From Oscillospiraceae bacterium (lineage in GTDB: Bacteria > Bacillota > Clostridia > Oscillospirales > JAAYXM01): DNA of 64,000 bases. This document shows, piece by piece, positions 129 through 37,156 of this stretch (positions are counted from its first letter, which is position 1; the number at the start of each line of letters is the position of its first letter). The position numbers and the translations under genes are program-made. Where the stretch lies: contig SVLF01000001.1 of NCBI GenBank assembly GCA_015068085.1, positions 1 through 64,000 on the forward strand, written 5' to 3'. The notes beneath the pieces are model-generated. The model had not been told where the DNA came from. It saw only the letters and a program-made list of their open reading frames with translations, and did no database searches.

Positions 129-301
129 TTTTTGCAAGTTTTGTCGTTTCCATTTTGTATCTTCGCAACGCTCTCTTGTTGCAGTGGATGAAAATATCAA
201 TAACGCCATGAGCCGGATAGGAGTTGCTCTCACCTCCCGCTGGGATGCGCACAAAATGATTGAGCTTGAAAACGGCAAGGCCGGTAAGGAAAAACGGTGC
301 A
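129..301. other. Intergenic stretch with no recognised gene
   Basis: This is the sequence between the intron end and the first regulatory element. Short open frames exist on both strands but they lack ribosome sites and resemble nothing I know. It may hold the interrupted end of whatever the intron inserted into or beside. Confidence 0.4.
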
Positions 302-360
302 AATTTGATACTTTTCTGCAATGTCATTTTCTTTACTTTTTACTTGCGGGAGATTATACT
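302..360 (+). promoter_or_regulatory. Promoter with putative AraC operator for the solute-binding protein
   Basis: The element AATTTGATACTTTTCTGCA (302-320) lies upstream of a TATACT -10 box at 355-360. The -35 position is poor (TTTACT). The same element, 18 of 19 bases identical, recurs at 3042-3060 with exactly the same 51-base distance from TTTGATAC to the -10 box. This fixed geometry and weak -35 suggest an activator site, most simply for the AraC protein encoded at 2001-2951. Confidence 0.6.
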
Positions 361-396
361 TAAAGTATACAAATAAGTGAAAGGATAGAACAAAAA

Positions 397-1947
397 ATGA
401 AAAAGATCACAACGTTTTTTCTTGCAGCAATAATGATGCTCGCGCTTTGCGCGTGTGGAGAAAGTAATGGTGCCGATGCACCGGGGGTAAAGATAGAGGC
501 AGGAAAGGCTCTTCCTGCAGATGCCGTGCTTGATGTAATGATAGCAAGCCATCCGAGCTGGCCGTATGAAGAGGATTTTGAAGTCTGGAAATACATAAAG
601 GACGGAGTGGGCGGAACGATCAACATTACCGCTGTTCCAACATCTGATTTCAAAACAAAGTTCCCGCTTGTTATGGCATCGCCGGACACCCTTCCGGATC
701 TTATCGGATTTCAAAACCAACCTGCTACGTATTCAGGATTCTGTGAGCAAGGTGCTTTTGTTGCGCTTGATGACAGATTAGACCTTCTTCCGGATTACGT
801 CGAATTCTGGAATAATGTTCCTGAGAATGAGCAATGGCTTCGTGACACGCGAAAAGGTGTGGATGGAAAGGTATATTTTGCACCGATTTACGGAATGTCG
901 CGTAGCACAAACGTGCGCACATGGTTATACCGTAAGGATGTTTTTGAAAAGCACAATCTGAAAACGCCGGAAACGATGGACGAGCTGTATGATGTATGCG
1001 TAAAGTTAAAAGCGCTTTATCCGGAGTCATATCCGTTCTGCGTGCGTCAGGGTTTTGATAACATTGACCTTATCGGTTCATCGTGGAAGCCCGGCTTATG
1101 CTTAGGCGTTTATTACGATTTTGAAAATGAAAAATGGTGCTATGGTGCAACCGAGGATGAGATATATGATATGGTTGTTTTCCTCAACAAGATGGTTGCA
1201 AACAAGCTTATGCCGGCAGATTTCTTTACAATCAATACATCCACATGGCAGGAGCTTGTCACCACCGATAAAGGCTTCGTTATGCCTGAATATCAGACAA
1301 GAATAGACTTTTTCCAGAACATTGTGAGAGAGAAGAACCCTGAGTTTACTCTTACTGCAATGAAACCGCCTGTCGCAGGAGAAAATGGAATCCCTATGGT
1401 CAATAAATATAACGTTGACACAATGGGATACTCTATTTGCAACACGGGTGATGAAAAAAGCATCGAAAATGCATTTCGTTACGTAAACTGGATGTATTCA
1501 GATGCCGGAGAGCTTGCCGTAAGCTGGGGTAAAGAGGGAGAAACCTATGAGGTGGTTGACGGTAAGAAAAAATTCATTCTCCCCGCAGAGGGCGATAGCG
1601 CACGCTCGCTTTACGGTTTTACCACAATAGGCACATATCTCCGCATAGACCCCGCAGCTGCAGATGCGTTTGCGTCGGAAGAGCAAGCAGCAACAACAGA
1701 TATGGTTCTTGAATATACCTATCCAAACCTTAATCCGGGAAGATGGCTTTCTTTCACTGCGCAGGAATCCAAAGAAATGGCAGACTTCACAACGTCCATC
1801 ACAACTTTTGTTGAGGAGAGTATTCAGAAGTTCGTTCTCGGTCAAAAACCGCTGAGTGAATGGGATGAATTTGAAAAAGAGCTTTCCGAGCTTGATGTGG
1901 ATGGCTTGCTTAAATACTATGAAACAGCATATAACAGAGTAAAATAA
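397..1947 (+). CDS. Extracellular solute-binding lipoprotein (ABC sugar uptake, family 1, LplA-like)
   Basis: A 516-residue exported lipoprotein. Residues 1-20 form a signal peptide ending in the lipobox LCAC, so the mature protein is lipid-anchored at the diacylated cysteine. The rest matches the large (about 500 aa) solute-binding proteins that serve CUT1/LplB-YtcP-type oligosaccharide transporters, with Trp-rich segments typical of carbohydrate sites. No permease or ATPase gene adjoins it, so its partners lie elsewhere. The window carries a close paralogue at 34615-36177, colinear over the whole length (shared YGMSRSTN/YGMDRSTN and EEQAATTD segments). It is the first gene after the putative AraC-controlled promoter and ends at a convergent terminator. 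The substrate is inferred from context to be a polysaccharide fragment. Confidence 0.9.
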   Translation: MKKITTFFLAAIMMLALCACGESNGADAPGVKIEAGKALPADAVLDVMIASHPSWPYEEDFEVWKYIKDGVGGTINITAVPTSDFKTKFPLVMASPDTLPDLIGFQNQPATYSGFCEQGAFVALDDRLDLLPDYVEFWNNVPENEQWLRDTRKGVDGKVYFAPIYGMSRSTNVRTWLYRKDVFEKHNLKTPETMDELYDVCVKLKALYPESYPFCVRQGFDNIDLIGSSWKPGLCLGVYYDFENEKWCYGATEDEIYDMVVFLNKMVANKLMPADFFTINTSTWQELVTTDKGFVMPEYQTRIDFFQNIVREKNPEFTLTAMKPPVAGENGIPMVNKYNVDTMGYSICNTGDEKSIENAFRYVNWMYSDAGELAVSWGKEGETYEVVDGKKKFILPAEGDSARSLYGFTTIGTYLRIDPAAADAFASEEQAATTDMVLEYTYPNLNPGRWLSFTAQESKEMADFTTSITTFVEESIQKFVLGQKPLSEWDEFEKELSELDVDGLLKYYETAYNRVK

Positions 1948-1955
1948 AAAAAGTT

Positions 1956-1994
1956 TCACCGAAAACGCATTTATGCGTTTTCGGTGAGTTTTTT
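1956..1994. terminator. Bidirectional intrinsic terminator
   Basis: A 15-bp perfect stem (TCACCGAAAACGCAT with its complement) has a 2-nt loop and is followed by GTTTTTTC on the plus strand and AAAAAAA (T-run on minus) on the other side. It separates the convergent solute-binding protein and AraC genes. Confidence 0.85.
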
Positions 1995-2000
1995 CGTAAT

Positions 2001-2951
2001 TCAGTTCTCGTCTGTGCTTTCTCGCGACTTATATTTTCGTAAGAACTCAGGGCGATATTTCTGATACCAGTCTCTTGAAAGAACTTTGTATTCTGTTGGT
2101 GTGTGTGAAGTGCTTTTCTTAAAGGTGTGAATCATATGGCTCTGGTGCGTGAATCCGCATTCCGAAGCGATTGAATCAAGCTTTGTATCAGTATGAACAA
2201 GATGATGCTGAGCCTGTCTTACCCTGAAGGAATTGAGAAAAGTAACAAACGTGACACCTGTTATCATCTGGAAAGAACGAAAGAATACGGAGCGCGACAT
2301 CATTGCCATTTTATACATATCGTCAGAATTTATCTGCTTTGAGAAATTGTCGAAAATATAGGTCACAACATCTGTTATCGCGTCAAATTTTTCAAGGAAC
2401 AAGGAAAGCTTGTTTATTGTAAGCTTGGGAGCATCGCATTTCGGGAGAAAAGAGAAAATACTGCTTATCAGCCGCAGCATTGTTTCTTTTGAAATATCCT
2501 CGTTTTGCATTTTAACAAGATCACCCAAAAGAATGTCTGCCTTTTTAATATCTTCATCAACAAGCTGCGTCGCTATTGTGCGGGGCTCTCCGTTGACATA
2601 CAAGCCAAAATCGTTGAAGGACAATATGGGAATGGGAATCTCTTTCGTTGCACATATATCATTGTATTCCTTGATGTTTATGGTACAGCACACAAGCTTT
2701 TTATCGGGAAAATCAAGTGTGTTTATAAAGTGCGGCGCATACGGCGGAATGAAAAGCAGCGAGCCGCGCGGAAGGGTATAGACGGTGTCGTTAACGCTGA
2801 ATTGATAGCACCCTTCAAGTGTGTACCAAAGCTGGGCTTCGGAATGGTAATGGGGGGAATCTATTCTTGAATGTGTGCATAAATCGACAATTCGTGTCCG
2901 TAGCTCACGGTGTGGCAGATTATGCGCAAGCAGTTGATTCGGAGTTTCCAT
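2001..2951 (-). CDS. AraC family transcriptional regulator of cluster I
   Basis: A 316-residue regulator. The N-terminal half is a cupin-like sensor: H-x-H-S-E-x-Q-x-W near residues 34-43, then a PRGSLLFIPP segment. The C-terminal ~100 residues hold the two helix-turn-helix motifs of AraC/XylS proteins, with the characteristic SIASECGFTHQSHMIHTFKK second helix region. The start is supported by GGGAGGTG about nine bases upstream. It sits between and convergent/divergent to two genes that share the repeated element at 302-320 and 3042-3060, so it probably activates both in response to a sugar ligand. It resembles the second AraC protein at 27110-28126 in architecture, but the two have different putative operators. 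Confidence 0.92.
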   Translation of the reverse strand: METPNQLLAHNLPHRELRTRIVDLCTHSRIDSPHYHSEAQLWYTLEGCYQFSVNDTVYTLPRGSLLFIPPYAPHFINTLDFPDKKLVCCTINIKEYNDICATKEIPIPILSFNDFGLYVNGEPRTIATQLVDEDIKKADILLGDLVKMQNEDISKETMLRLISSIFSFLPKCDAPKLTINKLSLFLEKFDAITDVVTYIFDNFSKQINSDDMYKMAMMSRSVFFRSFQMITGVTFVTFLNSFRVRQAQHHLVHTDTKLDSIASECGFTHQSHMIHTFKKSTSHTPTEYKVLSRDWYQKYRPEFLRKYKSRESTDEN

Positions 2952-3041
2952 ACATCAGCACCTCCCTACCTATAAAGTTTATCATATTTTCATCGGTGTG
3001 TCAATTTTATATAGTCTATTCCTGATATGTAAAATCTTCTT

Positions 3042-3100
3042 AATTTGATACTTTTATGCAGTCTAAATTAATTGATTTGGCGCCTGTTGTACGCTATAAT
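3042..3100 (+). promoter_or_regulatory. Promoter with putative AraC operator for the module protein/lyase genes
   Basis: AATTTGATACTTTTATGCA (3042-3060) precedes a good sigma-A promoter: TTGATT (3072-3077), 17-bp spacer, TATAAT (3095-3100). The upstream element repeats that at 302-320 with the same spacing to the -10 box. Transcription would start near 3107, upstream of the gene at 3138, and the divergent AraC gene lies just to the left. Confidence 0.65.
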
Positions 3101-3137
3101 AAAATTAAAGGATTTTACGAAAAAGGAGAAATGTACT

Positions 3138-5537
3138 ATGAAAAAAATAATATCTGTTGCACTGCTGCTTATTATGGTTCTCAGCATGGCATTGCAGCCG
3201 GCGTTTGCCTCAGAGGAGGTTACTGCCGATTATGTATTTGGAGGTGTTGCCGCCGCCGGTACCTCAGCAGACACGATTGAAAAATACGACGATACGGACT
3301 CCGGGAATTGGAAATGGTATGGAAGTACATGGACTTCTTCAAACGCCGTCGCAAAAATAAGAAATTGGAGTAAGGATTCCGATGATCGAATTCACGTATA
3401 TGGCACATTAAAAGATGAATGGTTTGCTTTTGACATTAAAGCTCAGCCTACAGGAATATATGCTGCGGAGATTGACTATTTTGGATACAATCCGACTTCC
3501 GGAACAGCCGGTGCTTGCGATATTTATGTTATTGAAAGACCTGCCGGTGAAGAAGTCAATACGGATGCTGTAAATGCAGCGCTCGCTGCATCTTCACCGA
3601 TTGGAGCTTTAAATTTTAAAGATACTACCTTGAGTTCCGGTGCGACTGCCAACAAGAAAAAAGAACTCAGAAGTGTAGCTTTTGAAGGTGACAAAAACTA
3701 TCTGCTTGTGTTTAAAACGACAGCTGATGGTGAAATGTTGATTAAGAATCTGCATGTGGAAAAGCTGGGAGAACTCTCTGAATTCAGCGCAACTGCAACA
3801 AAAACGACAATTTTGACTGGTGACAAATCAGAAATTTCAGTTGCAGCAACTGACAGCAACGGCAGAGAACTGAAAGCAAATAACTTTGAAGTGATAAGCT
3901 ATTCCTCGTCCGATAGTGATGTGGCAACTGTCGTTGACGGTGTTATAACGGCTGTTGCAAGCGGTACGGCAAAAATTACTGTGACCGCAACTCTCGGAGA
4001 TGTAACAAAGACGGCAGAGTTAAACGTTATCGTTGTAAGTACCGAAAAATATCTCTTTAGCGGAGTTAAAGACACCTGGGAGAAAATGCAGGGAAGTTCA
4101 AGCTATAAAACAGTTGAGGGCATTCCGTACGATCAGACGATGACCGGAAATTGGGCATGGCACAGCAAGAATACAACAAGTGATAACTTTAAGGTTTTTG
4201 CATTATCAACAGATTCCCGCTTGCAGATTGCCGGTATGGTTGAGAAAGATTGGTTTGCCCTCAAGATAAAGTCACCCGGAACGGGAAAATGGTCTGCAAG
4301 CCTTGAATACGTTGCATATGGTGGGGATGCAGGGAAAAGTGATATTTACATAATTCCGTTTTGTGATGAAAATAGGGTTGAGTCCTCTCTTGTTGAAAAG
4401 TATCGCGCAGGCAATGTGAATTATTCAGATTCTTCGCTTACAAGCGGGACTACAAAAACAAAAATACAGGAGCTGAAGAATTTCACGCTTTATGAAAACA
4501 GGGAATATATCGTTGTGTTCAAGGTGACGGCTACCGGAAATCTTCGTCCGAATCAGCTTGTCCTGACCGAAATCCCCGGTGCACAAATCGAGAAAGAGCC
4601 GGAGTGGGCTCAAGAAACCGTTTCATTTGCACAGACAACTAATATTGACGGATTTAATGATATTTCAATTGACACTGTTGACCGCGGCGATTCGGTTACA
4701 TTAACAGTGCATGAGCAGAACATCCCCGGCTACAAGTTCGTTGGCTGGAAGCGCGGCGCAGATACTTCCGATGACAATGCATGGGTGGATATCACGGGCG
4801 ACACTTACCGAGTCTGGACAAACACATATCTTACTGCGGTTTATGAGCCGATTGCAGAAGAAACCGCAAAGGTTGTAGAGTTCTGGAATCAGAACGGCAC
4901 GTACCTTGGCAAGGCTACGGAAGCTACTTATGCAACAGACGTGACAAGAGTTCCGACTCTTACGGGCTTTGGCACTTTCCTCGGCTGGTTTACGGACGGC
5001 AATTTGTTGCTCACACCTGATACAGAGCTTAAAGCAGGAACAACAAACGCAGTAGCACAGTATAAAGACGGAGATGTTTCTGGAGTAACGCATAATGGTG
5101 GTGCAGTCTCCGATGCGGATGTTTACAACGCACCGGTAGAACTTAATGCGACTTCCGATGCAACAACGTGTTGGAAACGTGATGGAGAAATTATAGCATA
5201 CGGCGACACATACAAATTCAATGTATGGGATTCAACTAATATAACTGAAGGAACAGAAGAAATTACAGACAAAGTTCCGGTTGCAATTCTTGATTACAGC
5301 GCAAATCATAAGGCATATATGCTTGAATATGATGCAGGTGCTTACGAAATCGTAGAAGCAGGTATCATCTTCGGCAAGGATACGGTAAATGTGAAAACAT
5401 ATACCTCGCAGAGAAAGGTTGCTCATAACCAGTTCACCGTTCCGGCAGAAGGTGGGTTGGATGCAACAGGATACATTATTTACACCTTGGACGACGGAGT
5501 GACATATGAGGTGAAATACGTAGACATAACAGAATAA
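3138..5537 (+). CDS. Secreted modular carbohydrate-binding-like protein (two beta modules, BIG2, InlB-type repeats)
   Basis: A 799-residue exported protein using the ATG at 3138, which follows AAAAGGAGAA. The signal peptide ends near AFA-SEE (about residue 26). It then has an unrecognised ~180-residue beta-rich module with invariant Trp and Gly-Tyr positions (residues ~30-215), a BIG2 Ig-like domain (~216-308), a second copy of the module (~310-480), Bacterial_repeat/InlB B-type strands with GYKFVGWK and FLGWFTDG (~500-640), and a C-terminal domain shared with the protein at 31800. No catalytic domain and no SLH anchor are visible. The same module occurs three times in the lyase encoded next, so I infer a glycan-binding or accessory role at the cell surface. 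Confidence 0.75.
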   Translation: MKKIISVALLLIMVLSMALQPAFASEEVTADYVFGGVAAAGTSADTIEKYDDTDSGNWKWYGSTWTSSNAVAKIRNWSKDSDDRIHVYGTLKDEWFAFDIKAQPTGIYAAEIDYFGYNPTSGTAGACDIYVIERPAGEEVNTDAVNAALAASSPIGALNFKDTTLSSGATANKKKELRSVAFEGDKNYLLVFKTTADGEMLIKNLHVEKLGELSEFSATATKTTILTGDKSEISVAATDSNGRELKANNFEVISYSSSDSDVATVVDGVITAVASGTAKITVTATLGDVTKTAELNVIVVSTEKYLFSGVKDTWEKMQGSSSYKTVEGIPYDQTMTGNWAWHSKNTTSDNFKVFALSTDSRLQIAGMVEKDWFALKIKSPGTGKWSASLEYVAYGGDAGKSDIYIIPFCDENRVESSLVEKYRAGNVNYSDSSLTSGTTKTKIQELKNFTLYENREYIVVFKVTATGNLRPNQLVLTEIPGAQIEKEPEWAQETVSFAQTTNIDGFNDISIDTVDRGDSVTLTVHEQNIPGYKFVGWKRGADTSDDNAWVDITGDTYRVWTNTYLTAVYEPIAEETAKVVEFWNQNGTYLGKATEATYATDVTRVPTLTGFGTFLGWFTDGNLLLTPDTELKAGTTNAVAQYKDGDVSGVTHNGGAVSDADVYNAPVELNATSDATTCWKRDGEIIAYGDTYKFNVWDSTNITEGTEEITDKVPVAILDYSANHKAYMLEYDAGAYEIVEAGIIFGKDTVNVKTYTSQRKVAHNQFTVPAEGGLDATGYIIYTLDDGVTYEVKYVDITE

Positions 5538-5558
5538 ATACACATACGCAATTTGAGA

Positions 5559-5585
5559 TATGGCAGAGTTGAACGCTCTGCCATA
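5559..5585 (+). other. Intercistronic hairpin
   Basis: TATGGCAGAG pairs perfectly with CTCTGCCATA over 10 bp with a 7-nt loop and no following T-run. It lies between the two cluster I surface-protein genes and could set mRNA stability or relative expression rather than ending transcription. Confidence 0.55.
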
Positions 5586-5605
5586 ATGAGACTAAGGAGG
5601 AAGTT

Positions 5606-8600
5606 ATGAAGAAAAAAATAATTTCAATTTTGCTTACGTTTTGTATGTTTGCAAGTTGTTTTACGCCGGGTATGGTATCGGCAGATGCTACAAATGACGA
5701 GTATGTGTTCAGTTCGATAAAAGACAGCTGGCCGGAAAAAATCGGGACACGACCGAATGCTGTGGATATAACATATGAATATACAACTTATGAAAATTGG
5801 GAGTGGTTCGGGACGACTTCAGAAACCATCACAGCGAGAGCTTTTTCGTACAAGGCTGGCGTTACCTGTCGCTTGCAGGTTGACGGCATGGCAGTTGGAG
5901 AATGGTTTGCTCTGTCGTTGAAAGTGTCGGAAAGCGGAAAGCACCTTGCAAGACTCGGTATGTGTGCTTACGGCACGGATTCCGGCACCGGCAAGTGTGA
6001 TGTCTATATTATTCCTCGCGTGGAGAAAGAAGAGGATGTAGCGGCGTTGCTTACTGACGAAACCCTTGTTGCAAGCGTAGATTTTTATAAAGAGCTTCCA
6101 AATGCCGGCGATATTGTTGATTGCGAAATACCGTTAAAGGGAGTGGATCTTGATAGCACGAAGGAATATCTAATCGTATTCAAGCAAACCGAAGAGGGGA
6201 TTTTGCGTCCGAATAAGTTAAGCTTTGTAAACAATATCGGAGAGCTGGCTGAGATAAATTGCAGCGTAAGTGAGAATGAGTTGCTTGTTGATAATACAAT
6301 GAAGATAGCATTTTCAGCCGAGGATACAAATGGAAATTTTCTTTTTGCAGAGGATTTAGACTATGTAAGCTATTCTTCAAGCGACGATAATATAGCAATT
6401 GTTTCTGAGCAAGGTGTGATATGCGGAGTAGCAAAGGGTAATGCGATTATCACGGTAACAGCATCAATTGGCAATGTTACAAAGACTCAAGATATTAGTG
6501 TTACTGTTATTGAAGGATTTGCGGGAATTGACGCAGAATACGTATTCAGCAAGGTTACGGATGCATGGACTACGAAAAATGGTTCAAAGCCCACGGTTAT
6601 AGATATTACTTATGCCGACACAACGGACGGCAACTGGGAATGGTTTGGAACGAATTCGGATACAGTAAGAGCTCGAGCGTTTTGGTACAATTCTGGAAAT
6701 TGCCGTATGCAGGTTGACAGCATGTCTGTCGGAGAATGGTTTGCGCTGACGTTCAAAGCTCCGAAAAGCGGCAAGTATCTTGCGAGACTCGGTATTTGCA
6801 CCTACGGGACAGATTCCGGAACGGGTGAAAGCGATGTATATATTCTTCCCAAACCGCAAAGCAAGGACATAACATCTCTTCTCACTTCTGATGCTCTTGT
6901 AGCAAGCCTGAATTTCTACGAATCTCTTCCTAATGCAGGAGATACGGCAGACCGAGTTGTTCCGATAGACGATCTTGAACTTAAAAAGGATGAAGAATAC
7001 ATAATTGTATTTAAGCAGACAGAAGAGGGCATTTTGCGCCCGAACAAGCTTGTTCTTATAGGAAATCTTGGAGAGCTTAAGAGCGTTGAGTGCACAACAG
7101 AGATTGATGCGTTTGATATCGGTGAATCGGTAAAGATTAATTTTCTTGCAAAAGATAGCAAAGGAAATACTTTGTATGAAAATAATATAGACAGCATTTC
7201 ATACAAATCAGGTGATGAGAATATTGCAGTTGTATCGGAAGATGGAGTGATTACCGGCAAGGATGACGGGGCCGCGACAATTACCATTTCCGCAAAATTT
7301 GGTGAAAAGGAAATAACACAGGACTTAATTGTATACGTGGGAAAAGAGCACATTAAATATGTAACCTCAACGCTTGATCGTCAGATAATTGATGTGAACG
7401 ACAGTGCAAAAATAACTTTTTCTGCAGAAAGCACATTCGGAAAAAAGCTTACTGCAGACGATGTGGATAAGATAACTTATTCTACAGAAGATACAGAAAT
7501 AATATCTGTGTCGGAAGACGGAGTTATCACAGGTTTGTCATACGGAACAGCGACTGTAAAAATAGAAGCCGAGCTTGAAAATATAAGCCGGGTACAAACG
7601 CTTGAAATCCTTGTTTCCGCTCCCATTGATTATTCACGAAGCTATGCGGAATATACGTTTAAAGATGTTTTAAGCACATGGGATCCTACTCTTCCTGATA
7701 TGGGATTTGCAGATAATCAGGGAAGAAAAGAGGATATCCGGGGAATAACGTATGAACACACGGTATCAGGCAACTGGGAATGGTATGGTACGGGACCTGA
7801 TTGGTCAACAAAGCCGTCCGGTGCGTACGCTTATTCCGGTACCGGAGATCCCCAGTGGAGACTAAGACTCAACATAGCAAAAGATAAGTGGGTAGGACTC
7901 ACAATCAAAGTTCCGGCGGCCGGAAAGTATAATGCAACGCTCCGGTATGCTGCTTACGGAATGCGAGCGAGTGCCGGAACAAGTGATATTTATATTGTGC
8001 CGAAGGATGCCGGAAACCCGGATAATATGCTCACGGAAAACTATTACCTCGGCAATGTAGATTACTATAGCGCTGCGCTTGACGGACAGAATGCGTTTGA
8101 GTATGGCGTTGCAGAATTAAAAGGTGCTGAATTTGCAAAACCGGGCGAATATATCGTCATATTCAAACAGACAAACGATAACAATGGTTACATAACTGTA
8201 CAGTCACTTGAACTTGAAGGACGGCGCCTTAAAGGACTGGAGTGTAGCTTGCCGGAGAAAATTGATGTTGGTACAACTGTGCCTGTTTCATTTGTTGCAC
8301 GTCATATAGACGGAAGTGGGCTTGGTGCAGACGAAATGCAGTTTGTAATATACGACACATCTAATCCCGATGTTGCTACGGTAGATATAAACGGCAATGT
8401 GAATGGTGTTGCTGACGGAAAAGCGATAATAAGTATAACTGCAAAAATGGACAATTTATCGGTTTCGCAGGATGTTCCTGTGACGATTGTAGACACGAGT
8501 GAGGTTCTCGGAATAGAGGTTGATGTTCCGGAGCGCATATATTTAAGTAGCTTTGGAACTCGTCCGGTTGCAACCTATGCAAAAATGGGAAGCGGAGCCA

Positions 8601-11600: not shown

Positions 11601-13027
11601 TCAATTCAGAAGGAAAAAACATCTATCGCTACGTACAGGATGGAACAATAATTGGTCAGGAGATACCGAAGCCTTCCGCATACACAGGTCAGATACTAGG
11701 GTTCACACGCGAACTTGAATGGGAAAACTTTATAAACGTAAAGTTTTCCGGTGACGTTGATGTGAATGATCTTATAGGCAGATGTATTTTTGTTGATAAC
11801 GATAAGGTGCAGAACGGAGCTTACAGAATTGTTGATGCCAAATTGTTGGAGGACGGAACCGTAAATCTCAGTACAGGAGCCGTATCCGTTATTCGCAGTT
11901 ATAAGGATAATAACAATATATACGCCGGATATAACTACAACATTGAAAAGGGGCAAACTTTTGAAATTCCTACGTCATATTCGGAGGATGAATCTCCGGT
12001 GTTTAAAGAAGTGCAGGAAAATGTTTCGACAAGTGCGGGAAGCACAGTTGAGGTGAAAATCAATGCAGCAACTACAATGGAAGGTGTGGATATTACTTAC
12101 ACACCGGAAAACCTTCCCAGAGGAGCTTCACTCAATTCGGAAACGGGTGTACTAACATGGAAACCGGACAACTCACAGGTAGGAGAAAACCATGTAGCTG
12201 TAAATGCTGTCGATTCGGAAGGAAGAATAAGCACGCTTCACTTCATCATAACAGTTTACGGCTCTACGACAGGCAAGCCGGAAACTCCGCAGACAGGCAA
12301 CACCAACGCACCTGCAGGCGGAGGCGGTGGAGGCGGCGGTGGCGGTGCCGCACCGACCGATGAGAAGAATAATGTTGGGGATTCCTCTGACGATGTAGGT
12401 AACAGCGGTTCCGACGTTCCAAACGATGAGGACTCCGCTAAATCAGATGAAACCGAAAAATCACCCGAGGCCTCGGGTGAAACGGATGATATCCGTTTCA
12501 CAGACCTTTCTAACTACGCATGGGCGGCGGAGGCAATCAGCGTGCTTGCAGAAGATGGAATAATAAAGGGCACGTCTGCAAGCACGTTCAGCCCGGCAAG
12601 CAACATCACCCGCGCTGATTTCGCTATTCTTCTTGTTCGCGCATTCAACCTTGAAAGTGACAACACCGAGAATTTTGCGGATGTATCTGCAAATGATTAT
12701 TTCGCGAAAGAGCTTGCAATTGCACGCAACAGCGGTATTGTTGGCGGAATCGGAGAAAACAAGTATGCTCCGAAAAATACGATAACCCGTCAGGATATGA
12801 TGGTGATTGTACACCGCGCACTTTCAAAAATGGGTGTAAATCTTGAGGTGGCAGATGTTGATTATGCAGACTTTGAGGATGTTTCAAACTATGCAAAGGA
12901 TGCGGTTAAGGCTCTTATAACGAGCGGACTTGTAAACGGCAAGAGTGGCAAAATTGCACCTGCTGATTACACCACCCGCGCAGAAGTTGCAGTACTTCTC
13001 AAAAGAGTTATATCATTAGAAAAGTAA
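5606..13027 (+). CDS. Giant SLH-anchored heparinase II/III-like polysaccharide lyase (cluster I)
   Basis: A 2473-residue surface protein preceded by AAGGAGG. Order of parts: signal peptide (1-27); beta modules at ~31-205, 310-486 and 680-872, alternating with BIG2-like domains (~211-301, 487-580, 582-672, 875-963) and a further Ig-like domain (~967-1060); an alpha/alpha-toroid region with a Cys4 zinc-type site (YCKYC near 1131, CPDCKRLFPSNDF near 1163); a heparinase II/III beta-sandwich containing ESHAHRDNLS near 1662 and SHNTVVVNG; a He_PIG-type Ig domain (~2131-2217); a poly-Gly linker; and three SLH repeats (~2298-2472). SLH repeats bind pyruvylated wall polymer, so the enzyme should sit on the cell surface. 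Heparinase II/III relatives cleave uronate-containing glycans by beta-elimination. The exact family and substrate cannot be told from the sequence alone. A paralogue is at 37157. Confidence 0.85.
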   Translation: MKKKIISILLTFCMFASCFTPGMVSADATNDEYVFSSIKDSWPEKIGTRPNAVDITYEYTTYENWEWFGTTSETITARAFSYKAGVTCRLQVDGMAVGEWFALSLKVSESGKHLARLGMCAYGTDSGTGKCDVYIIPRVEKEEDVAALLTDETLVASVDFYKELPNAGDIVDCEIPLKGVDLDSTKEYLIVFKQTEEGILRPNKLSFVNNIGELAEINCSVSENELLVDNTMKIAFSAEDTNGNFLFAEDLDYVSYSSSDDNIAIVSEQGVICGVAKGNAIITVTASIGNVTKTQDISVTVIEGFAGIDAEYVFSKVTDAWTTKNGSKPTVIDITYADTTDGNWEWFGTNSDTVRARAFWYNSGNCRMQVDSMSVGEWFALTFKAPKSGKYLARLGICTYGTDSGTGESDVYILPKPQSKDITSLLTSDALVASLNFYESLPNAGDTADRVVPIDDLELKKDEEYIIVFKQTEEGILRPNKLVLIGNLGELKSVECTTEIDAFDIGESVKINFLAKDSKGNTLYENNIDSISYKSGDENIAVVSEDGVITGKDDGAATITISAKFGEKEITQDLIVYVGKEHIKYVTSTLDRQIIDVNDSAKITFSAESTFGKKLTADDVDKITYSTEDTEIISVSEDGVITGLSYGTATVKIEAELENISRVQTLEILVSAPIDYSRSYAEYTFKDVLSTWDPTLPDMGFADNQGRKEDIRGITYEHTVSGNWEWYGTGPDWSTKPSGAYAYSGTGDPQWRLRLNIAKDKWVGLTIKVPAAGKYNATLRYAAYGMRASAGTSDIYIVPKDAGNPDNMLTENYYLGNVDYYSAALDGQNAFEYGVAELKGAEFAKPGEYIVIFKQTNDNNGYITVQSLELEGRRLKGLECSLPEKIDVGTTVPVSFVARHIDGSGLGADEMQFVIYDTSNPDVATVDINGNVNGVADGKAIISITAKMDNLSVSQDVPVTIVDTSEVLGIEVDVPERIYLSSFGTRPVATYAKMGSGARIKIDNADVVYTITGEEFAKLNDDFTFTALSEGTVTISAETMFRGELWTSEVVEFVVADGISKSEPTMYTYEKRAIAQKNIQKYSWAKSEEKVATQAADKYVNAVDKLVNVMIGEGIPRAIRHGEINDTEYAYCKYCGADVVGTYGHTGAGGWDLDPINRPWKVQCPDCKRLFPSNDFESFMKLGLDENGRFDVEEAHRKHKELFAEEYAKAGSDYGYGYLKNDLYPEVAEVKTLNVNRGLRDGETVEGWGVDDGYGYIPRDAKGRRFINGGIAERHSPIAIYHLYFWEWIRKDVFPNLINAYVYTGDEKYGRAGAIMIDRVADIMPDYHMDKYRGDFYFVGGGLAEGQEGKVVGRINDCNVFEVFARATDAFFPMIYDNQVQAKLQETARKFNLPNDKSTPEQIWQNWVDGILIESFESAKKGEIWGNFGMMQEALTIAAVSLDDEAKTDEILDFVFQSGEHVFESTTGGNLAPQLINVVNRDGFGNEVGPNYNVEWLKNLLGVAETLEDYSGTRNYKLFDNPKYAQMFAAFDSVVLADSFSVQIGDSSAVASRELATTLSPLTTGMQYLKDTVFAKRIAEQIYRMNGNATKDLHYSIYSENPEEIQQDVMKYVSDMPEQRSEILTGYGFAVLRDGTKSNNTTAVSHTNTLRDFWINFGNNVESHAHRDNLSIGMEAYGLNFSPDLGYPTTATGFGETNDWTKATLSHNTVVVNGAKQYKLVQQHGYPKHFDDSGIVKLFDVDSPIAYSTAPIYRRTLLMIKVDDESSYGVDFFRVKGGNRHEYSFHAQSDNIHDTEGLEITKQVDENGNYIGTLAGPDTEFGVDKEAKYQVGYTWFKNIRYDMNPQNQFSVDFNITDFRKAIKDSKNLHLKLTMLNDFDLSKVTIASGHVPQKKENLQMPKTLEYVIAEHSGANGLDSLFTTVLEPYKNERYLSEMSTIPITVKEGEEGLDDTAHAIKVTYVNGNTDYIVYATNKNVVYTVSDENATFDFSGFVGVYRINSEGKNIYRYVQDGTIIGQEIPKPSAYTGQILGFTRELEWENFINVKFSGDVDVNDLIGRCIFVDNDKVQNGAYRIVDAKLLEDGTVNLSTGAVSVIRSYKDNNNIYAGYNYNIEKGQTFEIPTSYSEDESPVFKEVQENVSTSAGSTVEVKINAATTMEGVDITYTPENLPRGASLNSETGVLTWKPDNSQVGENHVAVNAVDSEGRISTLHFIITVYGSTTGKPETPQTGNTNAPAGGGGGGGGGGAAPTDEKNNVGDSSDDVGNSGSDVPNDEDSAKSDETEKSPEASGETDDIRFTDLSNYAWAAEAISVLAEDGIIKGTSASTFSPASNITRADFAILLVRAFNLESDNTENFADVSANDYFAKELAIARNSGIVGGIGENKYAPKNTITRQDMMVIVHRALSKMGVNLEVADVDYADFEDVSNYAKDAVKALITSGLVNGKSGKIAPADYTTRAEVAVLLKRVISLEK

Positions 13028-13047
13028 AAGCTGGTTCAAACGCAGTT

Positions 13048-13084
13048 AAAGCGGAGAAAAAGTTTTACCTTTTCTCCGCTTTAT
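13048..13084 (+). terminator. Intrinsic terminator after the cluster I lyase gene
   Basis: AAAGCGGAGAAAA pairs with TTTTCTCCGCTTT over 13 bp. The T-run is short, so read-through into the methyltransferase genes at 13124 is possible; no clear sigma-A promoter is visible between them. Confidence 0.7.
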
Positions 13085-13123
13085 TAAATATCAAGAGTCT
13101 AAAGTGAAGAGTGTGACAACGAA

Positions 13124-14128
13124 ATGAAATATAATACAAGACAATGGTTGCAGCAGACAGCCATGGATAAAAAGGCAATGCCGATACTGTCATTTCCATG
13201 CATATCGCTTCTTGGGGTAACTGTGAAGGAACTGATTTCCGACAGCACAAAGCAAGCAGAAGGCATGATAAAAATTGCAGAGGAAGTGCCGTCGGCGGCA
13301 TCGGTCAGTCTTATGGATCTGTCGGTCGAAGCGGAATGCTTTGGTGCTCAGGTTCAATTTTCAGACAGTGAAGTACCTGCGATAACGGGCAGACTGATTA
13401 ACACTCCGGATGAGGCCGAAGAATTGAAAGTGCCTCCGGTTGGCGCGGCAAGGTCCGGAATATATATTGATGCAATTAAAAAAGCCAAAAGTTCGATTGC
13501 GGACCGTCCGGTTTTTGCAGGGATAATAGGTCCGTTTTCTTTAGCGGCGCGCTTATTTGATGTTACGCAGGTTATGTTTGATTGTTATGACGAGCCTGAT
13601 ATGGTGCATGCCGTAACAGAAAAGGCAACTGATTTTTTAATCGAATACGCCATGAGCTATAAGAGCGCGGGGGCTGACGGAATTGTAATGGCCGAGCCTG
13701 TGGCAGGTCTTCTCTCTCCGTCGTTGGAGGAAGAATTTTCATCTCCGTATGTTAAAAAAATAGTGGATGCGGTTCAGGATGAAAGCTTTGCTGTCATATA
13801 TCATAATTGCGGCGATAATGTTTTGTATATGTTGGATTCAATTTTAAAAACCGGGGCATCGGCATATCATTTCGGAAACTCGATAGATATGAAAGAAGCC
13901 TTAAGTAAGCTTCCTGATGAAACTTTTGTTATGGGAAACCTTGATCCCGTTGGCGTGTTGAGATTTGGCACACCCGAAGCAGTTCGTTCTGCCACAGAAG
14001 AACTTCTCAAATTAGTAGCAGAGAAGGATAATTTCATAATCTCATCCGGATGTGATATTCCACCGGAGACCCCCTGGGAAAATATCAGAGTATTTTTTGA
14101 GACGATTAAAAACTATGGAGACAAATGA
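13124..14128 (+). CDS. UroD-superfamily zinc methyltransferase, MtaA/MtbA-like
   Basis: A 334-residue TIM-barrel protein of the uroporphyrinogen decarboxylase superfamily. The zinc-binding pattern of MtaA/MtbA-type corrinoid methyltransferases is present: H227-N-C229 (in YHNCGDN) and C310 (in SSGCDIPPETP), 81 residues apart. True heme-pathway UroD lacks this, so a methyl-transfer role is much more likely. In methanogens this class moves methyl groups from a corrinoid protein to coenzyme M; the acceptor in this bacterium is unknown, with a thiol or folate as candidates. It is the first of five tightly linked genes; the next gene starts inside its last codons. It begins at ATG 13124 with only a weak ribosome site. 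Confidence 0.85.
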   Translation: MKYNTRQWLQQTAMDKKAMPILSFPCISLLGVTVKELISDSTKQAEGMIKIAEEVPSAASVSLMDLSVEAECFGAQVQFSDSEVPAITGRLINTPDEAEELKVPPVGAARSGIYIDAIKKAKSSIADRPVFAGIIGPFSLAARLFDVTQVMFDCYDEPDMVHAVTEKATDFLIEYAMSYKSAGADGIVMAEPVAGLLSPSLEEEFSSPYVKKIVDAVQDESFAVIYHNCGDNVLYMLDSILKTGASAYHFGNSIDMKEALSKLPDETFVMGNLDPVGVLRFGTPEAVRSATEELLKLVAEKDNFIISSGCDIPPETPWENIRVFFETIKNYGDK

Positions 14129-14681
14129 AAAGTATTTTCTGCAAAAAATAGTTGATTTGGGAGCAACCCGTGCAGAAGTAGTTAATGTAGAAGATATTGA
14201 GCTGGATGCTTCTTTTAGAAAGCTATGTCACTCCAATGAATGCGGAATGTACGGTAAATGCTGGATGTGTCCTCCTGATATAGGTGAAATTGATGAATTG
14301 ATGAAGGCTCTTAGAAAATTCAGTTTATGTTTTGTGTATCAGACTGTGGGAACATTGGCGGATAGCTTCGATTTCGAAGGAATGATGAAGGCAAAAAAAC
14401 AGCATTTTGCCATTACGCAGAAAGTGCAACAGCTTTTCCGTTCTGAAAAAAGCAGTGAATTTCTTCTCCTGAGCACAGGCGGTTGCGGAGTATGCAATGT
14501 TTGCGCAAAAGAGAGCGGTTCTCCGTGCCGATATCCGCAGAGTGCAGTTTCGTCATTGGAGGCATATGGTGTAAATGTATCGCAGTTGGCAAAACTGGCA
14601 GGAATTCCTTATTCCAATGGGAAAAACACAGTAATTTACTTTGGTGTTGTATTGGTGAAAAAATATGAATTGCTCAGGTAA
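14115..14681 (+). CDS. DUF2284 predicted metal-binding protein
   Basis: A 188-residue protein starting at ATG 14115, overlapping the upstream stop codon by 14 bases. It is cysteine-rich: CGMYGKCWMCPP near residue 40 and GGCGVCNVCAKESGSPC near residue 125. This pattern fits the DUF2284 family, which is predicted to bind a metal or an Fe-S cluster and often accompanies corrinoid methyltransferase genes. Its biochemical role is not established. Translational coupling on both sides (the next gene also overlaps) argues that it works with the methyltransferase set, perhaps in electron delivery to the corrinoid activator. That role is inference. Confidence 0.8.
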   Translation: METNEKYFLQKIVDLGATRAEVVNVEDIELDASFRKLCHSNECGMYGKCWMCPPDIGEIDELMKALRKFSLCFVYQTVGTLADSFDFEGMMKAKKQHFAITQKVQQLFRSEKSSEFLLLSTGGCGVCNVCAKESGSPCRYPQSAVSSLEAYGVNVSQLAKLAGIPYSNGKNTVIYFGVVLVKKYELLR

Positions 14682-16176
14682 AACGGTATCGCTGAAGATA
14701 AACGGAAAACTCATAGAAGCCCTGCACGGAGCAAAATTGTCTGAATATATAAATGCCCATCTGTATTGTGGCGGTACGGGAAATTGCGGAAAATGCAAAA
14801 TAGTGGCAAGAGGAGAGCTTTCCGAAATGACCTCTGCTGAGAAAAAGCATTTGACGCCGTCGGAAATACGTTTGGGAATACGCCTTGCATGTCAGATCCG
14901 TATATGCGGAGACTGCGAAATATACTATGATGCTTCCGAATCTGAAATGCAGATATGCGATGACGGAAAGTTGACGGCGTCGGCATCAAATCCTTTTTTC
15001 GAGAAATATGGTGTGGTAATAGATATAGGAACAACCACACTTGTCGCCGGATTATTTTCCGAAAACGGAGAGCTTGTGGTAACAAAGACAGCTTTGAATC
15101 CGCAGACGCGTTGGGGAAGTGATGTGGTTTCTCGAATTAATTCTGCAAACGAAGGAAAGAAAAGGGAAATTTGCTGTGTTCTCAGGGATAAGATAGATGA
15201 ACTGGTATCGGGACTTATCAGTGATGCAGGGATCAATTCGGCTGAAGCTGACGGATTGGTAATAACAGGAAACACGGTGATGCTACACTTTTTATGTGAT
15301 TTTTCGACCGAAACACTTTCCTGTTGGCCTTTCAAAGTAAAATCACTGTTTGGATACACAGTTTCGGCAGCAGACCTCGGGTTTTCAGCTCTTCCGGCGG
15401 AAACCAAAATGTATCTTCCGCCTTGCATTTCAGCTTTTGTGGGAGCTGATCTCGTCTGTGCCATGCTCTCGGTTGATTTCTGTAAAAAAGGCGGGACAAG
15501 GCTGCTTGCAGATATTGGAACGAATGGAGAGATTGCACTCTGGCACAATGATGAGCTGACTGTATGCTCAACTGCTGCGGGTCCGGCATTTGAAGGAGCC
15601 GGAATTTCGTCCGGTATGAGAGGTGAGCGAGGAGCAATTGATTCTGCGAAGATAAGCAACGGAAAGCTGATTGTTCATACTATTGGTAACGCGCCTCCAA
15701 AAGGTATCTGCGGAAGTGGACTAATTGATGCCATAGCCGGTTTGCTTGAACTCGGTTTAATTGATGAAAGCGGGTATATGGAAAACGATAGAGTTGAAAT
15801 TGCGGAAAACATATTCCTGACACAGGAAGATATTCGCGCGGTGCAGTTGGCAAAAAGCGCGATTTGTGCAGGAATTGAAACACTTCTTGCTACAAAAGGA
15901 ATTGAGATTGCGGATGTAGATGTGCTCTATATAGCAGGCGGATTTGGCAATTATCTGCACTTGGAGAGCGCGGAAAAAATTGGGCTGATTCCCAAAGGTA
16001 TGAGCGGGGTAACGAGGTGTGTCGGAAATGCGGCACTGAGCGGGGCCGGAATGCTATTGCTGCAAAGTGACTTACATCAAAATTGTCAGTATATTTCAGA
16101 AAAAGCGGATACTCTGCAGTTGGCCGCAAATCAGGTGTTCAGCGAATTATATATAAGGGGAATGTCTTTTGAATAA
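14665..16176 (+). CDS. Corrinoid activation protein (2Fe-2S ferredoxin domain plus ASKHA/DUF4445)
   Basis: A 503-residue protein. Residues 1-85 form a plant-type [2Fe-2S] domain with cysteines 35, 41 and 44 (C-x5-C-x2-C) and 76. The remainder is the ASKHA ATPase-like DUF4445 fold seen in RACo-type reductive activators, with DIGTTTLVAG, ADIGTNGEIAL, AGPAFEGAGI and IAGGFGNYLHLESAEKIG segments. Such proteins use ATP to re-reduce the inactive Co(II) corrinoid to Co(I). It lacks the C-terminal 4Fe-4S clusters of methanogen RamA. It overlaps the DUF2284 gene by 17 bases and precedes the corrinoid protein it should act on. Confidence 0.9.
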   Translation: MNCSGKTVSLKINGKLIEALHGAKLSEYINAHLYCGGTGNCGKCKIVARGELSEMTSAEKKHLTPSEIRLGIRLACQIRICGDCEIYYDASESEMQICDDGKLTASASNPFFEKYGVVIDIGTTTLVAGLFSENGELVVTKTALNPQTRWGSDVVSRINSANEGKKREICCVLRDKIDELVSGLISDAGINSAEADGLVITGNTVMLHFLCDFSTETLSCWPFKVKSLFGYTVSAADLGFSALPAETKMYLPPCISAFVGADLVCAMLSVDFCKKGGTRLLADIGTNGEIALWHNDELTVCSTAAGPAFEGAGISSGMRGERGAIDSAKISNGKLIVHTIGNAPPKGICGSGLIDAIAGLLELGLIDESGYMENDRVEIAENIFLTQEDIRAVQLAKSAICAGIETLLATKGIEIADVDVLYIAGGFGNYLHLESAEKIGLIPKGMSGVTRCVGNAALSGAGMLLLQSDLHQNCQYISEKADTLQLAANQVFSELYIRGMSFE

Positions 16177-16236
16177 AGCAGTCCTGTTTCAGGCAATAAA
16201 GATTGAAATTCAATAAAAAAGAATCGAGGAACAAAA

Positions 16237-16872
16237 ATGAGTATTTTAAATGAAATTTCAGAGCTTTTGCAAAAAGGAAGAGCGAAGCAAGTACAGCAGC
16301 TTGTCCAAAATGCAATTGACGAAGGTATCGAAGCAACACTGATTTTGAACGAAGGTTTGCTTGGTGGGATGAGTATTATCGGAGAAAAATTTAAAAACAA
16401 CGAGGTTTTTGTACCGGATGTACTGATGGCGGCAAGAGCTATGAATATGGGATCCCAGATACTGAAGCCACACTTAGCTGAAGAAGGTATTCAATCAAAA
16501 GGAAAAGTGTGCCTTGGTACTGTGCATGGAGATTTGCACGATATAGGCAAAAATCTTGTGAAGATGATGATGGAAGGAAAAGGGCTGGAAGTTGTGGATC
16601 TTGGTACCGATGTACTTCCGGAAAAATATGTAGAGGTTGCAATCAAAGAGAATTGCCAGGTAATCTGTTGCTCTGCACTTCTGACAACAACGATGGAAGT
16701 AATGAAAGATGTGGTTAAAGCGGCAGAGAATGCAGGAATACGCGACAAAGTCAAGATTATGGTAGGCGGAGCACCGGTTACGGAAGATTTTTGTCGTGAA
16801 ATCGGAGCTGATGCGTATACTGTTGATGCGGCAAGCGCGGCAGACGTAGCGGTTGAGCTTTGTAAGGGGTAA
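16237..16872 (+). CDS. Methyltransferase cognate corrinoid protein
   Basis: A 211-residue protein of the MtaC/MtbC/MttC type. Residues 1-85 are the helical cap domain (methionine-synthase B12-binding 1) and ~88-210 the Rossmann cobalamin domain. The B12 signature is complete: D99-x-H101-x-x-G104 (DLHDIG) with His101 the lower cobalt ligand, then SALLTTT and the GGAPV loop. It carries the methyl group between the two UroD-fold enzymes encoded on either side. It lies between the activator gene and the second methyltransferase (6-bp gap), so the operon contains all parts expected of a three-component methyl-transfer system. Confidence 0.93.
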   Translation: MSILNEISELLQKGRAKQVQQLVQNAIDEGIEATLILNEGLLGGMSIIGEKFKNNEVFVPDVLMAARAMNMGSQILKPHLAEEGIQSKGKVCLGTVHGDLHDIGKNLVKMMMEGKGLEVVDLGTDVLPEKYVEVAIKENCQVICCSALLTTTMEVMKDVVKAAENAGIRDKVKIMVGGAPVTEDFCREIGADAYTVDAASAADVAVELCKG

Positions 16873-16877
16873 AGAGT

Positions 16878-17960
16878 ATGAAAATAAAAACCTTTGATTG
16901 TTATTCAGTCAATCATGCAGAAAATTTTACAAAAGCAGTCAGATTTGAGAAACCTGATTTTATTCCCGTAAACTTTGTGATAAACGATGCTTGTTGGCAT
17001 CATTACCCCAAGGATGCGCTTTGGAATCTGATGGAAGAACATAAATATCTGTTCCCGGATTTTGTTCGTCCCGATAATGATTGGATGCCGGAATGCTTGT
17101 TGGTTGCGCGAAAAGATTTTCCATATACCGACCCTATGGGATGTACTTGGGTAACTTCTGATGACGGAATAACAGGGACGGTTAAGGAACACCCTCTTGC
17201 GGATTGGAGTGCATTTGGCACTTCCTGGACTATTCCGGATCCAGAGAAAAGCGACGGACTGTATATGGTGGACTGGGCAGAAAAGGAAAAGGAATGGACG
17301 GAGCTCAAGAAATCCGGAAAGGATTTTCATGCTAAATTACGACATGGACACACTTTTTTACAACTGTGTGACTTGCGTGGATATGAAAATTTAATGTTTG
17401 ATATGATGGATGAGGAACCCTTGTTGATGGAATTGATTGATAAACTTGAAACTTTCAATATGGAAATCGTCAAAAGATTTGTAAAAAGCGGATGTGATTC
17501 CATCGGTTATCCCGAAGATTTGGGAATGCAGGTTGGACCTATGATTCCGCCGGACTTGTTTGAGCAGTACATAAAACCTTCTTACACACGTTTGATGAAG
17601 CCTGCAAGAGATGCAGGAATCCCGATACGAATGCATTCGGACGGTGACATTCGCAGCTTGGCTGACCATTTGGTTGAGAGCGGCGTCGAAGTAATAAATA
17701 TACAAGATTTGGTAAATGGTATAGATTGGATAGCAGATCGCTTCCGCGGAAAAACTTGTGTTGAGCTTGATATTGACAGACAATCAATTACTCCTTACGG
17801 AACTCCGGAAGAAATTGATGATTTGATAAAGAATGCAGTAAAGAAAATTGCAACGCCTCAAGGTGGTTTGTGTCTGTGTTACGGATTGTATCCGGGTGTT
17901 CCACTGGAAAATGCAAAAGCTGTTATGGATGCGATGGAAAGATATGCTACGAATATCTAA
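16878..17960 (+). CDS. UroD-superfamily methyltransferase, probable substrate:corrinoid (MT1) component
   Basis: A 360-residue UroD-fold protein, distinct from the one at 13124. Where MtaA-type enzymes have the zinc H-x-C, this one has H253-S-D255-G-D257 (MHSDGD), and no matching downstream C. This fits a substrate-specific enzyme rather than the CoM/folate-side enzyme, so I infer that it demethylates the incoming substrate and methylates the corrinoid protein encoded 6 bp upstream. The substrate is not evident: a methoxy-aromatic, a methylated sugar or a methylated amine are all possible. Its position behind a surface lyase favours a plant- or glycan-derived O-methyl compound. Confidence 0.8.
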   Translation: MKIKTFDCYSVNHAENFTKAVRFEKPDFIPVNFVINDACWHHYPKDALWNLMEEHKYLFPDFVRPDNDWMPECLLVARKDFPYTDPMGCTWVTSDDGITGTVKEHPLADWSAFGTSWTIPDPEKSDGLYMVDWAEKEKEWTELKKSGKDFHAKLRHGHTFLQLCDLRGYENLMFDMMDEEPLLMELIDKLETFNMEIVKRFVKSGCDSIGYPEDLGMQVGPMIPPDLFEQYIKPSYTRLMKPARDAGIPIRMHSDGDIRSLADHLVESGVEVINIQDLVNGIDWIADRFRGKTCVELDIDRQSITPYGTPEEIDDLIKNAVKKIATPQGGLCLCYGLYPGVPLENAKAVMDAMERYATNI

Positions 17961-18044: not shown

Positions 18045-18080
18045 AATCGAGTAGGGTGGTTAATTTCGCCCTACTCGATT
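18045..18080. repeat. Perfect 12-bp inverted repeat
   Basis: AATCGAGTAGGG pairs with CCCTACTCGATT around a 12-nt loop, followed by AAAACG. The right arm shares CCTACTCGATT with the group II intron end at 118-128. It could be a terminator for the methyltransferase operon or a relic of an intron 3' end. Confidence 0.5.
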
Positions 18081-28126: not shown

Positions 28127-28214
28127 CAAATATCCCTCCTCACGCGTTTTTTCTGTAACTATATAATACAACACTTTCGTGATTATTGCAAGTGGTATTT
28201 TTATCACAAAAACT

Positions 28215-28269
28215 CAGGACGATTATCCAAATTTTGAGGTTGTTGTATTTTTGCAGAAAATGTTATCAT
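28215..28269 (+). promoter_or_regulatory. Promoter with 32-bp operator, copy 1
   Basis: A 32-bp sequence (28215-28246, beginning CAGGACGATTATCC and ending TGAGGTTGTTGT) is followed 17 bp later by the -10 box TATCAT (28264-28269). Bases 28241-28246 would sit where the -35 box belongs. An identical copy with identical spacing is at 31712. The natural reading is a class II activator site overlapping -35, used by the divergent AraC regulator. Confidence 0.75.
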
Positions 28270-28337
28270 TAAATTGAAAAACAAAAGTAATAACGGAGAG
28301 CAGATAATATCTGCCAACGGAATGAAGGATGAAGAAT

Positions 28338-31666: not shown

Positions 31667-31711
31667 GCTTACGGCTACGGCGTTTACAGGGTGTGCTTTC
31701 AGGCAAAATTA

Positions 31712-31766
31712 CAGGACGATTATCCAAATTTTGAGGTTGTTGTTTCTTCCGGAAAAATGTTATAAT
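31712..31766 (+). promoter_or_regulatory. Promoter with 32-bp operator, copy 2
   Basis: Bases 31712-31743 are identical to 28215-28246, and the -10 box TATAAT (31761-31766) again follows 17 bp later. Downstream bases also agree (GTTATNATTAAATT). The gene at 31800 would be transcribed from here, under the same regulator as the Gfo/Idh gene. Confidence 0.78.
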
Positions 31767-31799
31767 TAAATTACAAAAATAAGCAGGAGGAATGTTGCT

Positions 31800-34538: not shown

Positions 34539-34548
34539 ATCACACGCT

Positions 34549-34573
34549 GAGGGTGGGCGTCTCGCCCTCCCTC
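34549..34573 (+). other. Intercistronic GC-rich hairpin
   Basis: GAGGG-T-GGGCG pairs with CGCCC-T-CCCTC around TCT. Only AATATTTT follows, so it is more likely an mRNA-stability or partial-termination element between the module protein and the lipoprotein gene. Confidence 0.55.
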
Positions 34574-34614
34574 AATATTTTAAAGTGTACTCAAGCAGAG
34601 AGGAGAAAAAGAAA

Positions 34615-36177: not shown

Positions 36178-36214
36178 CGGGACAAAGAACAAAGCGAGAG
36201 AAAGGAATAGAGGA

Positions 36215-37000: not shown

Positions 37001-37015
37001 ACTGAAAGTATATGC

Positions 37016-37069: not shown

Positions 37070-37156
37070 GGCAGCATATGCAGAATAACAAGTAAAGCTT
37101 TAAGGCTGTTATAATTAAACAGTAAAACAAGGTTGAACTACCGAAGGAGAAGGAGT

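Follow-up and report, generated by a model that had tools for sequence, protein, structure and literature searches.

In characterized acetogen systems, a pterin-type methyltransferase loads the methyl group onto tetrahydrofolate (H4folate; PMC13222342; PMC10418091). Across the superfamily of UroD-fold methyltransferases, Kountz and Balskus describe S-methyltransferases that keep a His-Cys-Cys zinc site and O-methyltransferases in which the zinc cysteines are swapped for carboxylates (PMC10418091); type 1 mlp gene clusters contain Mlp2 and Mlp3 as a minimum and, apart from some Mlp1 proteins, all of their Mlps have His-Cys-Cys zinc ligands (PMC10418091). Here, we analyze the window, a 64,000-nucleotide stretch (contig SVLF01000001.1, positions 1 to 64,000) of a gut-type Oscillospiraceae (Clostridia) genome (GCA_015068085.1, hereafter G000; 3.17 Mb, 88% complete), which carries a five-gene corrinoid methyl-transfer operon (13124-17960) next to a surface polysaccharide lyase. 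A first-pass annotation of this DNA had joined the two into a single pathway.

Polysaccharides of plants and algae commonly contain O-methyl sugars, which obstruct ordinary sugar catabolism. An anaerobic enzyme or corrinoid system that removes sugar O-methyl groups is not described in the literature searched, the coverage of which was incomplete. We put at about even the chance that the operon works on its own as a corrinoid O-demethylase of methylated sugars, with 4-O-methyl-glucuronate as a possible substrate, and passes the methyl group to a thiol. The first-pass observation was right, its joint lyase-demethylase reading is probably a neighbor effect, and its sugar-donor idea holds on evidence independent of the lyase, with the substrate assigned hypothetically.

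The Corrinoid Operon

All five genes lie on the forward strand. The first (13124-14128) encodes MT2, an MtaA/MtbA-like methyltransferase of the URO-D fold (Pfam URO-D, 207 bits), in which H227, C229 and C310 were confirmed letter by letter as the His-Cys-Cys ligands of a His227-x-Cys229...Cys310 zinc site; MT2 scores below the curated NCBIfam cut-offs (167 of 244 bits for PRK06252, 145 of 235 bits for TIGR01463). In two related loci, L161 and L164, the third Cys is replaced by Ser and falls outside the partial sequence, respectively. MT2 overlaps the gene for a Cys-rich DUF2284 protein (14115-14681, Pfam), whose open reading frame (ORF) opens at 14052 and whose start was taken as 14115. This gene in turn overlaps that for a RACo/AcsV-type reductive activator (14665-16176), which has N-terminal 2Fe-2S cysteines, the RACo middle and C-terminal (ASKHA) domains, and a match to PDB entry 3zyy (E = 3e-66). 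A 60-bp gap precedes P0008 (16237-16872), an MtgC/MtbC-like corrinoid protein (Pfam B12-binding and B12-binding_2) with D99, H101 and G104 confirmed as the D-x-H-x-x-G cobalt-ligand motif, and 5 bp further lies MT1 (P0009, 16878-17960), the putative substrate-side methyltransferase, a member of an unnamed family with a URO-D score of 72 bits. A 15-bp hairpin with no clear U tract (18045-18080, forward strand; -24.8 kcal/mol, z -6.8) is found 3' of the operon.

MT1, the corrinoid protein, MT2 and the activator, all four components of a corrinoid methyl-transfer system, are encoded together, and by its predicted products 13124-17960 is a corrinoid methyl-transfer operon. Pfam and the residue check bear out the five linked genes and both motifs (H227/C229/C310 and D99/H101/G104) named by the first-pass annotation, the profile scores being too strong for chance hits. 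It had also called the system complete, which is accurate for one with a URO-D-type second methyltransferase and does not extend to a methyl-H4folate methyltransferase of the pterin type: none of the five genes encodes a domain that Pfam recognizes as pterin-binding.

The Metal Site of MT1

The MT1 family is distributed among Clostridia, Spirochaetes, Planctomycetes and Verrucomicrobia-type bacteria. An AlphaFold2 model of MT1 (predicted local distance difference test score, pLDDT, 93.5) has the UroD/MtaA fold, with Z about 23. MT1 H253 and D255 align to the MT2 zinc ligands H227 and C229, and E213, H253 and D255 are invariant in an alignment of 45 sequences from several phyla. The 16878 enzyme, earlier thought to lack the zinc motif, indeed has no H-x-C...C, but carries an invariant variant, E213/H253-x-D255, instead. 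As judged from the alignment, MT1 carries the zinc site in an oxygen-type form; under the rule quoted above (PMC10418091), a carboxylate site in MT1 versus His-Cys-Cys in MT2 fits an assignment of MT1 to oxygen and MT2 to sulfur.

The same residues bear on methyl-sulfur or methyl-selenium salvage, the function suggested for type 1 mlp gene clusters. The MtaA/MtbA-like MT2 with its His-Cys-Cys site would suit such a role, and the combination of a corrinoid protein, an activator and multiple URO-D genes recalls these clusters; yet a type 1 cluster requires two or more Mlps with the His-Cys-Cys site, whereas His-Cys-Cys is present in MT2 only and MT1 has H253-x-D255, and no sulfur or selenium genes adjoin the operon, making salvage a very unlikely function.

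Searched against the PDB, the MT1 profile has no match at 1e-5; a loose cut-off yields weak matches to MtaA (2e-4) and to CdmB (E = 1.7), the latter, as a PDB sequence, being all that the comparison covered of the aromatic clade. The closer approach to MtaA than to this one member may speak against the operon demethylating lignin- or flavonoid-derived methoxylated aromatics, like OdmB, VdmB and MtvB, with its sugar neighbors being incidental. Known UroD-family O-demethylases do use aromatic substrates (PMC13222342; PMC12915777), and close relatives inhabit herbivore guts, but the pterin-type second methyltransferase (MTII) of known systems is absent from the operon, and glucuronate and glycan gene sets include members of the MT1 family. 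We regard aromatic donors as improbable and favor a methylated sugar.

Sugar Genes Around MT1

A sugar-derived methyl donor, as the first-pass annotation envisaged, is supported by MT1 neighborhoods in other genomes and not by the lyase. Relatives of MT1 are often flanked by sugar genes. A hexuronate set in Sphaerochaetaceae (L050) reads Mannitol_dh-PfkB-6PGD-Lar_N-UxaC (glucuronate isomerase)-MT1, and a sheep colon locus (L026) reads glucuronoyl esterase-MT1-DUF2284-like-GFO/IDH/MocA. Other arrangements are GH95-sulfatase-sulfatase-MT1-NAGLU in Pontiella sulfatireligans (L046), GH78-like-MT1-nucleoside hydrolase-like-fucosidase-like-GH38 (L027) and GH38-GFO/IDH/MocA-amidohydrolase-MT1 (L060). 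GFO/IDH/MocA genes are more frequent at up to two genes from MT1 (16/159) than at four or more genes from it in the same loci (3/204; p = 5e-4). Glucuronoyl esterases (CE15) act on 4-O-methyl-glucuronate esters in glucuronoxylan. If one donor had to be named, this specificity and the operon containing glucuronate isomerase would point to 4-O-methyl-glucuronate.

At 36 bp upstream of MT1 in L104 (645-2891, 749 aa) and at 7 bp upstream in L116 (2711-4759, 683 aa) lie genes for proteins with no Pfam match; both are possibly undescribed glycan enzymes.

The Corrinoid Cassette in Other Genomes

The cassette recurs in Clostridia of herbivore guts. Genes in the relatives' loci were called by a codon-usage gene caller. 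The cassette in L160, a locus from a water-deer cecum genome, comprises an AraC-corrinoid fusion, MT1, MT2, DUF2284 and RACo in an order unlike that of the window (74% identity for MT1, 52% for MT2, 46% for DUF2284, 33% for RACo and 76% for the corrinoid protein). L168 carries MT1 (66%), MT2 (65%), DUF2284 (50%) and the corrinoid protein (76%) on a contig that ends where RACo is expected. Neither locus has a lyase. In the related cassettes of L161 and L164, different URO-D proteins take the place of MT1. MT1 is a member of an operon in the window, L028, L160 and L168.

Pairing extends beyond adjacency. A P0008 orthologue at least 60% identical is present in 7/8 MT1-carrying genomes versus 1/20 non-carriers (Fisher p = 5e-5), a count that leaves out the genome of the window itself, and 24 of 30 further genomes, chosen as MT1 carriers, have a P0008 homologue at 45-77% identity that mostly does not adjoin MT1. 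These patterns suggest that one corrinoid cassette is shared by several substrate enzymes. G000, where just two URO-D proteins were found genome-wide, both within the 13124-17960 operon, is a minimal case.

Pairing also bears on whether the donor is something else (methanol, a methylamine or a haloalkane) or MT1 is no methyltransferase at all. In favor, the donor is a putative one and many MT1 homologues have no adjacent corrinoid gene; set against this, MT1 pairs genome-wide with the P0008 orthologue and belongs to an operon in the window, L028, L160 and L168, and none of the five genes is of the MtaB or MttB type. We consider these options decidedly improbable, and a methylated sugar remains the preferred donor. 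A broader and more tentative proposal, which we think has somewhat less than an even chance, is that of a cross-phylum corrinoid O-demethylase family for methylated sugars, in which satellite MT1s in sugar gene sets share one cassette and, in some gut Clostridia, the AraC-corrinoid fusion reads methylation and switches genes in an Ada-like manner. Ada switches genes through a methylated cysteine.

Single-ORF AraC-corrinoid fusions, with the cupin/AraC part first, occur in gut Clostridia genomes at L160:8489-10048 and L168:6621-8156 (both reverse strand) and at L162:4384-5922 and L163:7586-9151 (both forward strand), and their N-terminal halves share 36-50% mutual identity. The fusion domains were confirmed by Pfam for L160 and L162; the latter is a real fusion, because there is no internal Met at the junction. 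Such a protein could be a methyl-corrinoid-sensing regulator; nothing relevant to these fusions was found in the literature searched. A distinct group of AraC-type regulators of about 400 aa, sharing 33-80% identity along most of the protein, is encoded beside or near corrinoid or activator genes in L105, L107, L115, L117, L119, L164 and L167. Larger cassettes (L111:5730-13962, L113:6367-13915 and L166:4909-13043) combine a single corrinoid protein with four or five distinct URO-D proteins encoded around it; their URO-D metal motifs vary (HSC, HSD, HWD, HTD, HNC), and the cassettes suggest several substrates per system.

Proposed Reaction and Its Weak Points

The sequences themselves show which genes the operon holds, that the set recurs, how the metal site varies and that MT1 and the corrinoid protein go together genome-wide; methyl-transfer activity, the sugar donor, the thiol acceptor and the direction of the reaction are what we infer. 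MT1 (16878) would transfer a methyl group from an O-methylated sugar, the most plausible being a methylated hexuronate, e.g., 4-O-methyl-glucuronate, to Co(I) of the 16237 corrinoid protein, and MT2 (13124), with its His-Cys-Cys zinc, would hand it from there to a thiol. The 14665 activator would re-reduce cobalt that has slipped to Co(II), with an accessory role for the DUF2284 protein (14115).

The lack of a pterin-type methyltransferase in the operon, the His-Cys-Cys site of MT2 and the failure to find a gene for carbon monoxide dehydrogenase/acetyl-CoA synthase (CODH/ACS) together lead us to a thiol acceptor and to a demethylation that probably unlocks the sugar rather than supplying acetogenesis. 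Acetogenesis was rejected as the fate of the methyl group: the CODH/ACS beta subunit, CdhC, was detected neither in G000 nor in five of the six relatives tested, the exception being G036. G000 does encode formate-tetrahydrofolate ligase (FTHFS). The methyl fate, i.e., the thiol acceptor, is the least supported step of the model.

Several points weigh against a stand-alone sugar O-demethylase. The failure to detect CdhC in G000 is provisional, the genome being 88% complete. Sugar gene sets around MT1 differ between genomes and do not prove a single donor; the family may for this reason cover several methylated sugars. In polysaccharide degraders, sugar genes would frequently be found close to MT1 homologues in any case, and the within-locus neighbor control covers GFO/IDH/MocA only. 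Some neighbors are housekeeping genes (polC and gcpE in L024, clpX in L025), and the MT1 orthologues lie mostly apart from the cassette, many of them monocistronic. Finally, no promoter for 13124 was recognized within the 96-bp gap that separates the operon from the lyase, and read-through from the lyase is possible.

The Neighboring Lyase

The module upstream of the operon (397-13027) comprises four genes that ORF calls and Pfam place and assign as the first-pass annotation did. A solute-binding protein (SBP) lipoprotein (SBP_bac_1; 397-1947, forward), assigned to the lyase module and outside the corrinoid operon, is followed by an AraC-family regulator (AraC/HTH_18; 2001-2951, reverse), a secreted Ig-type surface/binding protein (Big_2; 3138-5537, forward), for which the ORF runs from TTG 3072 and the probable start is ATG 3138, where the signal peptide begins, and a 2473-aa surface lyase (5606-13027, forward). 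The lyase consists of Ig repeats, a heparinase II/III-type core and three SLH domains that extend from about 12494 to the protein end; its Hepar_II_III_C domain (about 10583-11014) scores 53 bits against a Pfam cut-off of 24, and its core profile retrieves PL17 alginate lyases and the ulvan lyase Uly1040 from the PDB. It is a predicted heparinase II/III-type polysaccharide lyase, with a core resembling uronate lyases.

The AraC protein at 2001-2951 was considered as the regulator of the corrinoid operon and rejected. Of the AraC proteins compared, the one that it matches best belongs to a second lyase module (27110-28207; 28% over 265 aa), and its match to AraC proteins adjoining corrinoid genes, which in the relatives form a different group, is limited to about 100 aa of the helix-turn-helix.

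This second module (27110-44980, forward strand except for its AraC gene) has no corrinoid genes and encodes AraC, GFO/IDH/MocA, a 795-aa protein with no Pfam match, a 912-aa Ig protein, SBP, an M55 peptidase and a 2615-aa SLH heparinase-like lyase. Its SBP (34585-36177) is 63% identical to that at 397-1947, the two lyases share 40% identity, and the 912-aa Ig protein (at 31800) matches the 3138-5537 protein at 23%. G000 encodes 55 Hepar_II_III_C proteins, most of 2000-3300 aa, an extreme expansion of lyases that are SLH-anchored in both copies read in the window; 397-13027 would be one of many surface lyase modules in a uronate-polysaccharide specialist.

The joint model of the first-pass annotation has the surface lyase cleaving an acidic polysaccharide that carries methyl groups, with the operon taking the methyl groups off the product after its import. 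The two lie on the same strand, 96 bp apart, and the lyase core is similar to uronate lyases; an SLH lyase is found 6 kb from the MT1 orthologue in G001, a member of the same family, a heparinase-like gene is near MT1 and the glucuronoyl esterase in L026, and another heparinase gene is near the AraC-corrinoid fusion in L162. However, the 96-bp gap contains a 14-bp hairpin with a UUUAUU tail (13047-13083, forward strand; -19.3 kcal/mol, z -6.6), a probable intrinsic terminator that renders "joined" doubtful; a simple terminator scan did not pick it up, which is attributed to the loop limit of the scan. With 55 such proteins in the genome, one lyase near the operon is unremarkable, 0.35 heparinase II/III-type genes being expected within 10 kb of a random G000 point. 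Among 21 MT1-carrying relatives, MT1 is mostly away from lyase loci: a heparinase-type gene lies within 10 kb in two (G001 and G401) versus 0.62 expected (no significant enrichment, p = 0.13), an expectation that ignores contig ends, so the true lyase excess could be somewhat larger. Lyase linkage was rejected as a conserved feature on this count, and the outcome is the one that the first-pass annotation had named as refuting its linkage claim. The second lyase module lacks methyl genes, the L160 and L168 cassettes lack lyases, and no operator shared by the upstream regions of the lyase, the second lyase and the operon was seen by simple alignment. A single lyase-demethylase pathway is unlikely; the linkage is unproven rather than disproved, and the lyase is most likely an unrelated neighbor of the operon.

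Significance and Comparison With Known Systems

A stand-alone sugar O-demethylase, if confirmed, would give a function to many proteins of gut and sediment bacteria now annotated as uroporphyrinogen decarboxylase and explain the route of methylated glucuronoxylan sugars into anaerobic metabolism; L026, L050 and L160 make up a short list of loci suited to direct tests.

The lyase at 5606-13027 has its C-terminal domain and conserved His motifs in common with the PL17/Uly1040 heparinase II/III superfamily, from which it differs as a giant, SLH-anchored protein. MT2 matches MtaA/MtbA of the MtaABC/MtbA systems in NCBIfam and the PDB (4ay7) and retains His-Cys-Cys, and the MT1 model is predicted to have the same fold (Z about 23); by contrast, MT2 remains below the NCBIfam cut-offs, the operon has no MtaB or MttB, and the bacterium has no methanogenesis. 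Compared with type 1 mlp clusters (PMC10418091), one of the two URO-D proteins is H-x-D and sulfur and selenium genes are absent beside the operon. OdmABCD, VdmB, MtvB and CdmBCA (PMC13222342) resemble the operon in combining a UroD-fold substrate methyltransferase, a corrinoid protein, an activator and a second methyltransferase; the window system differs in an MT1 weakly related to CdmB (E = 1.7), in an MT2 that is a URO-D His-Cys-Cys protein rather than pterin-type, and in its sugar-gene contexts.

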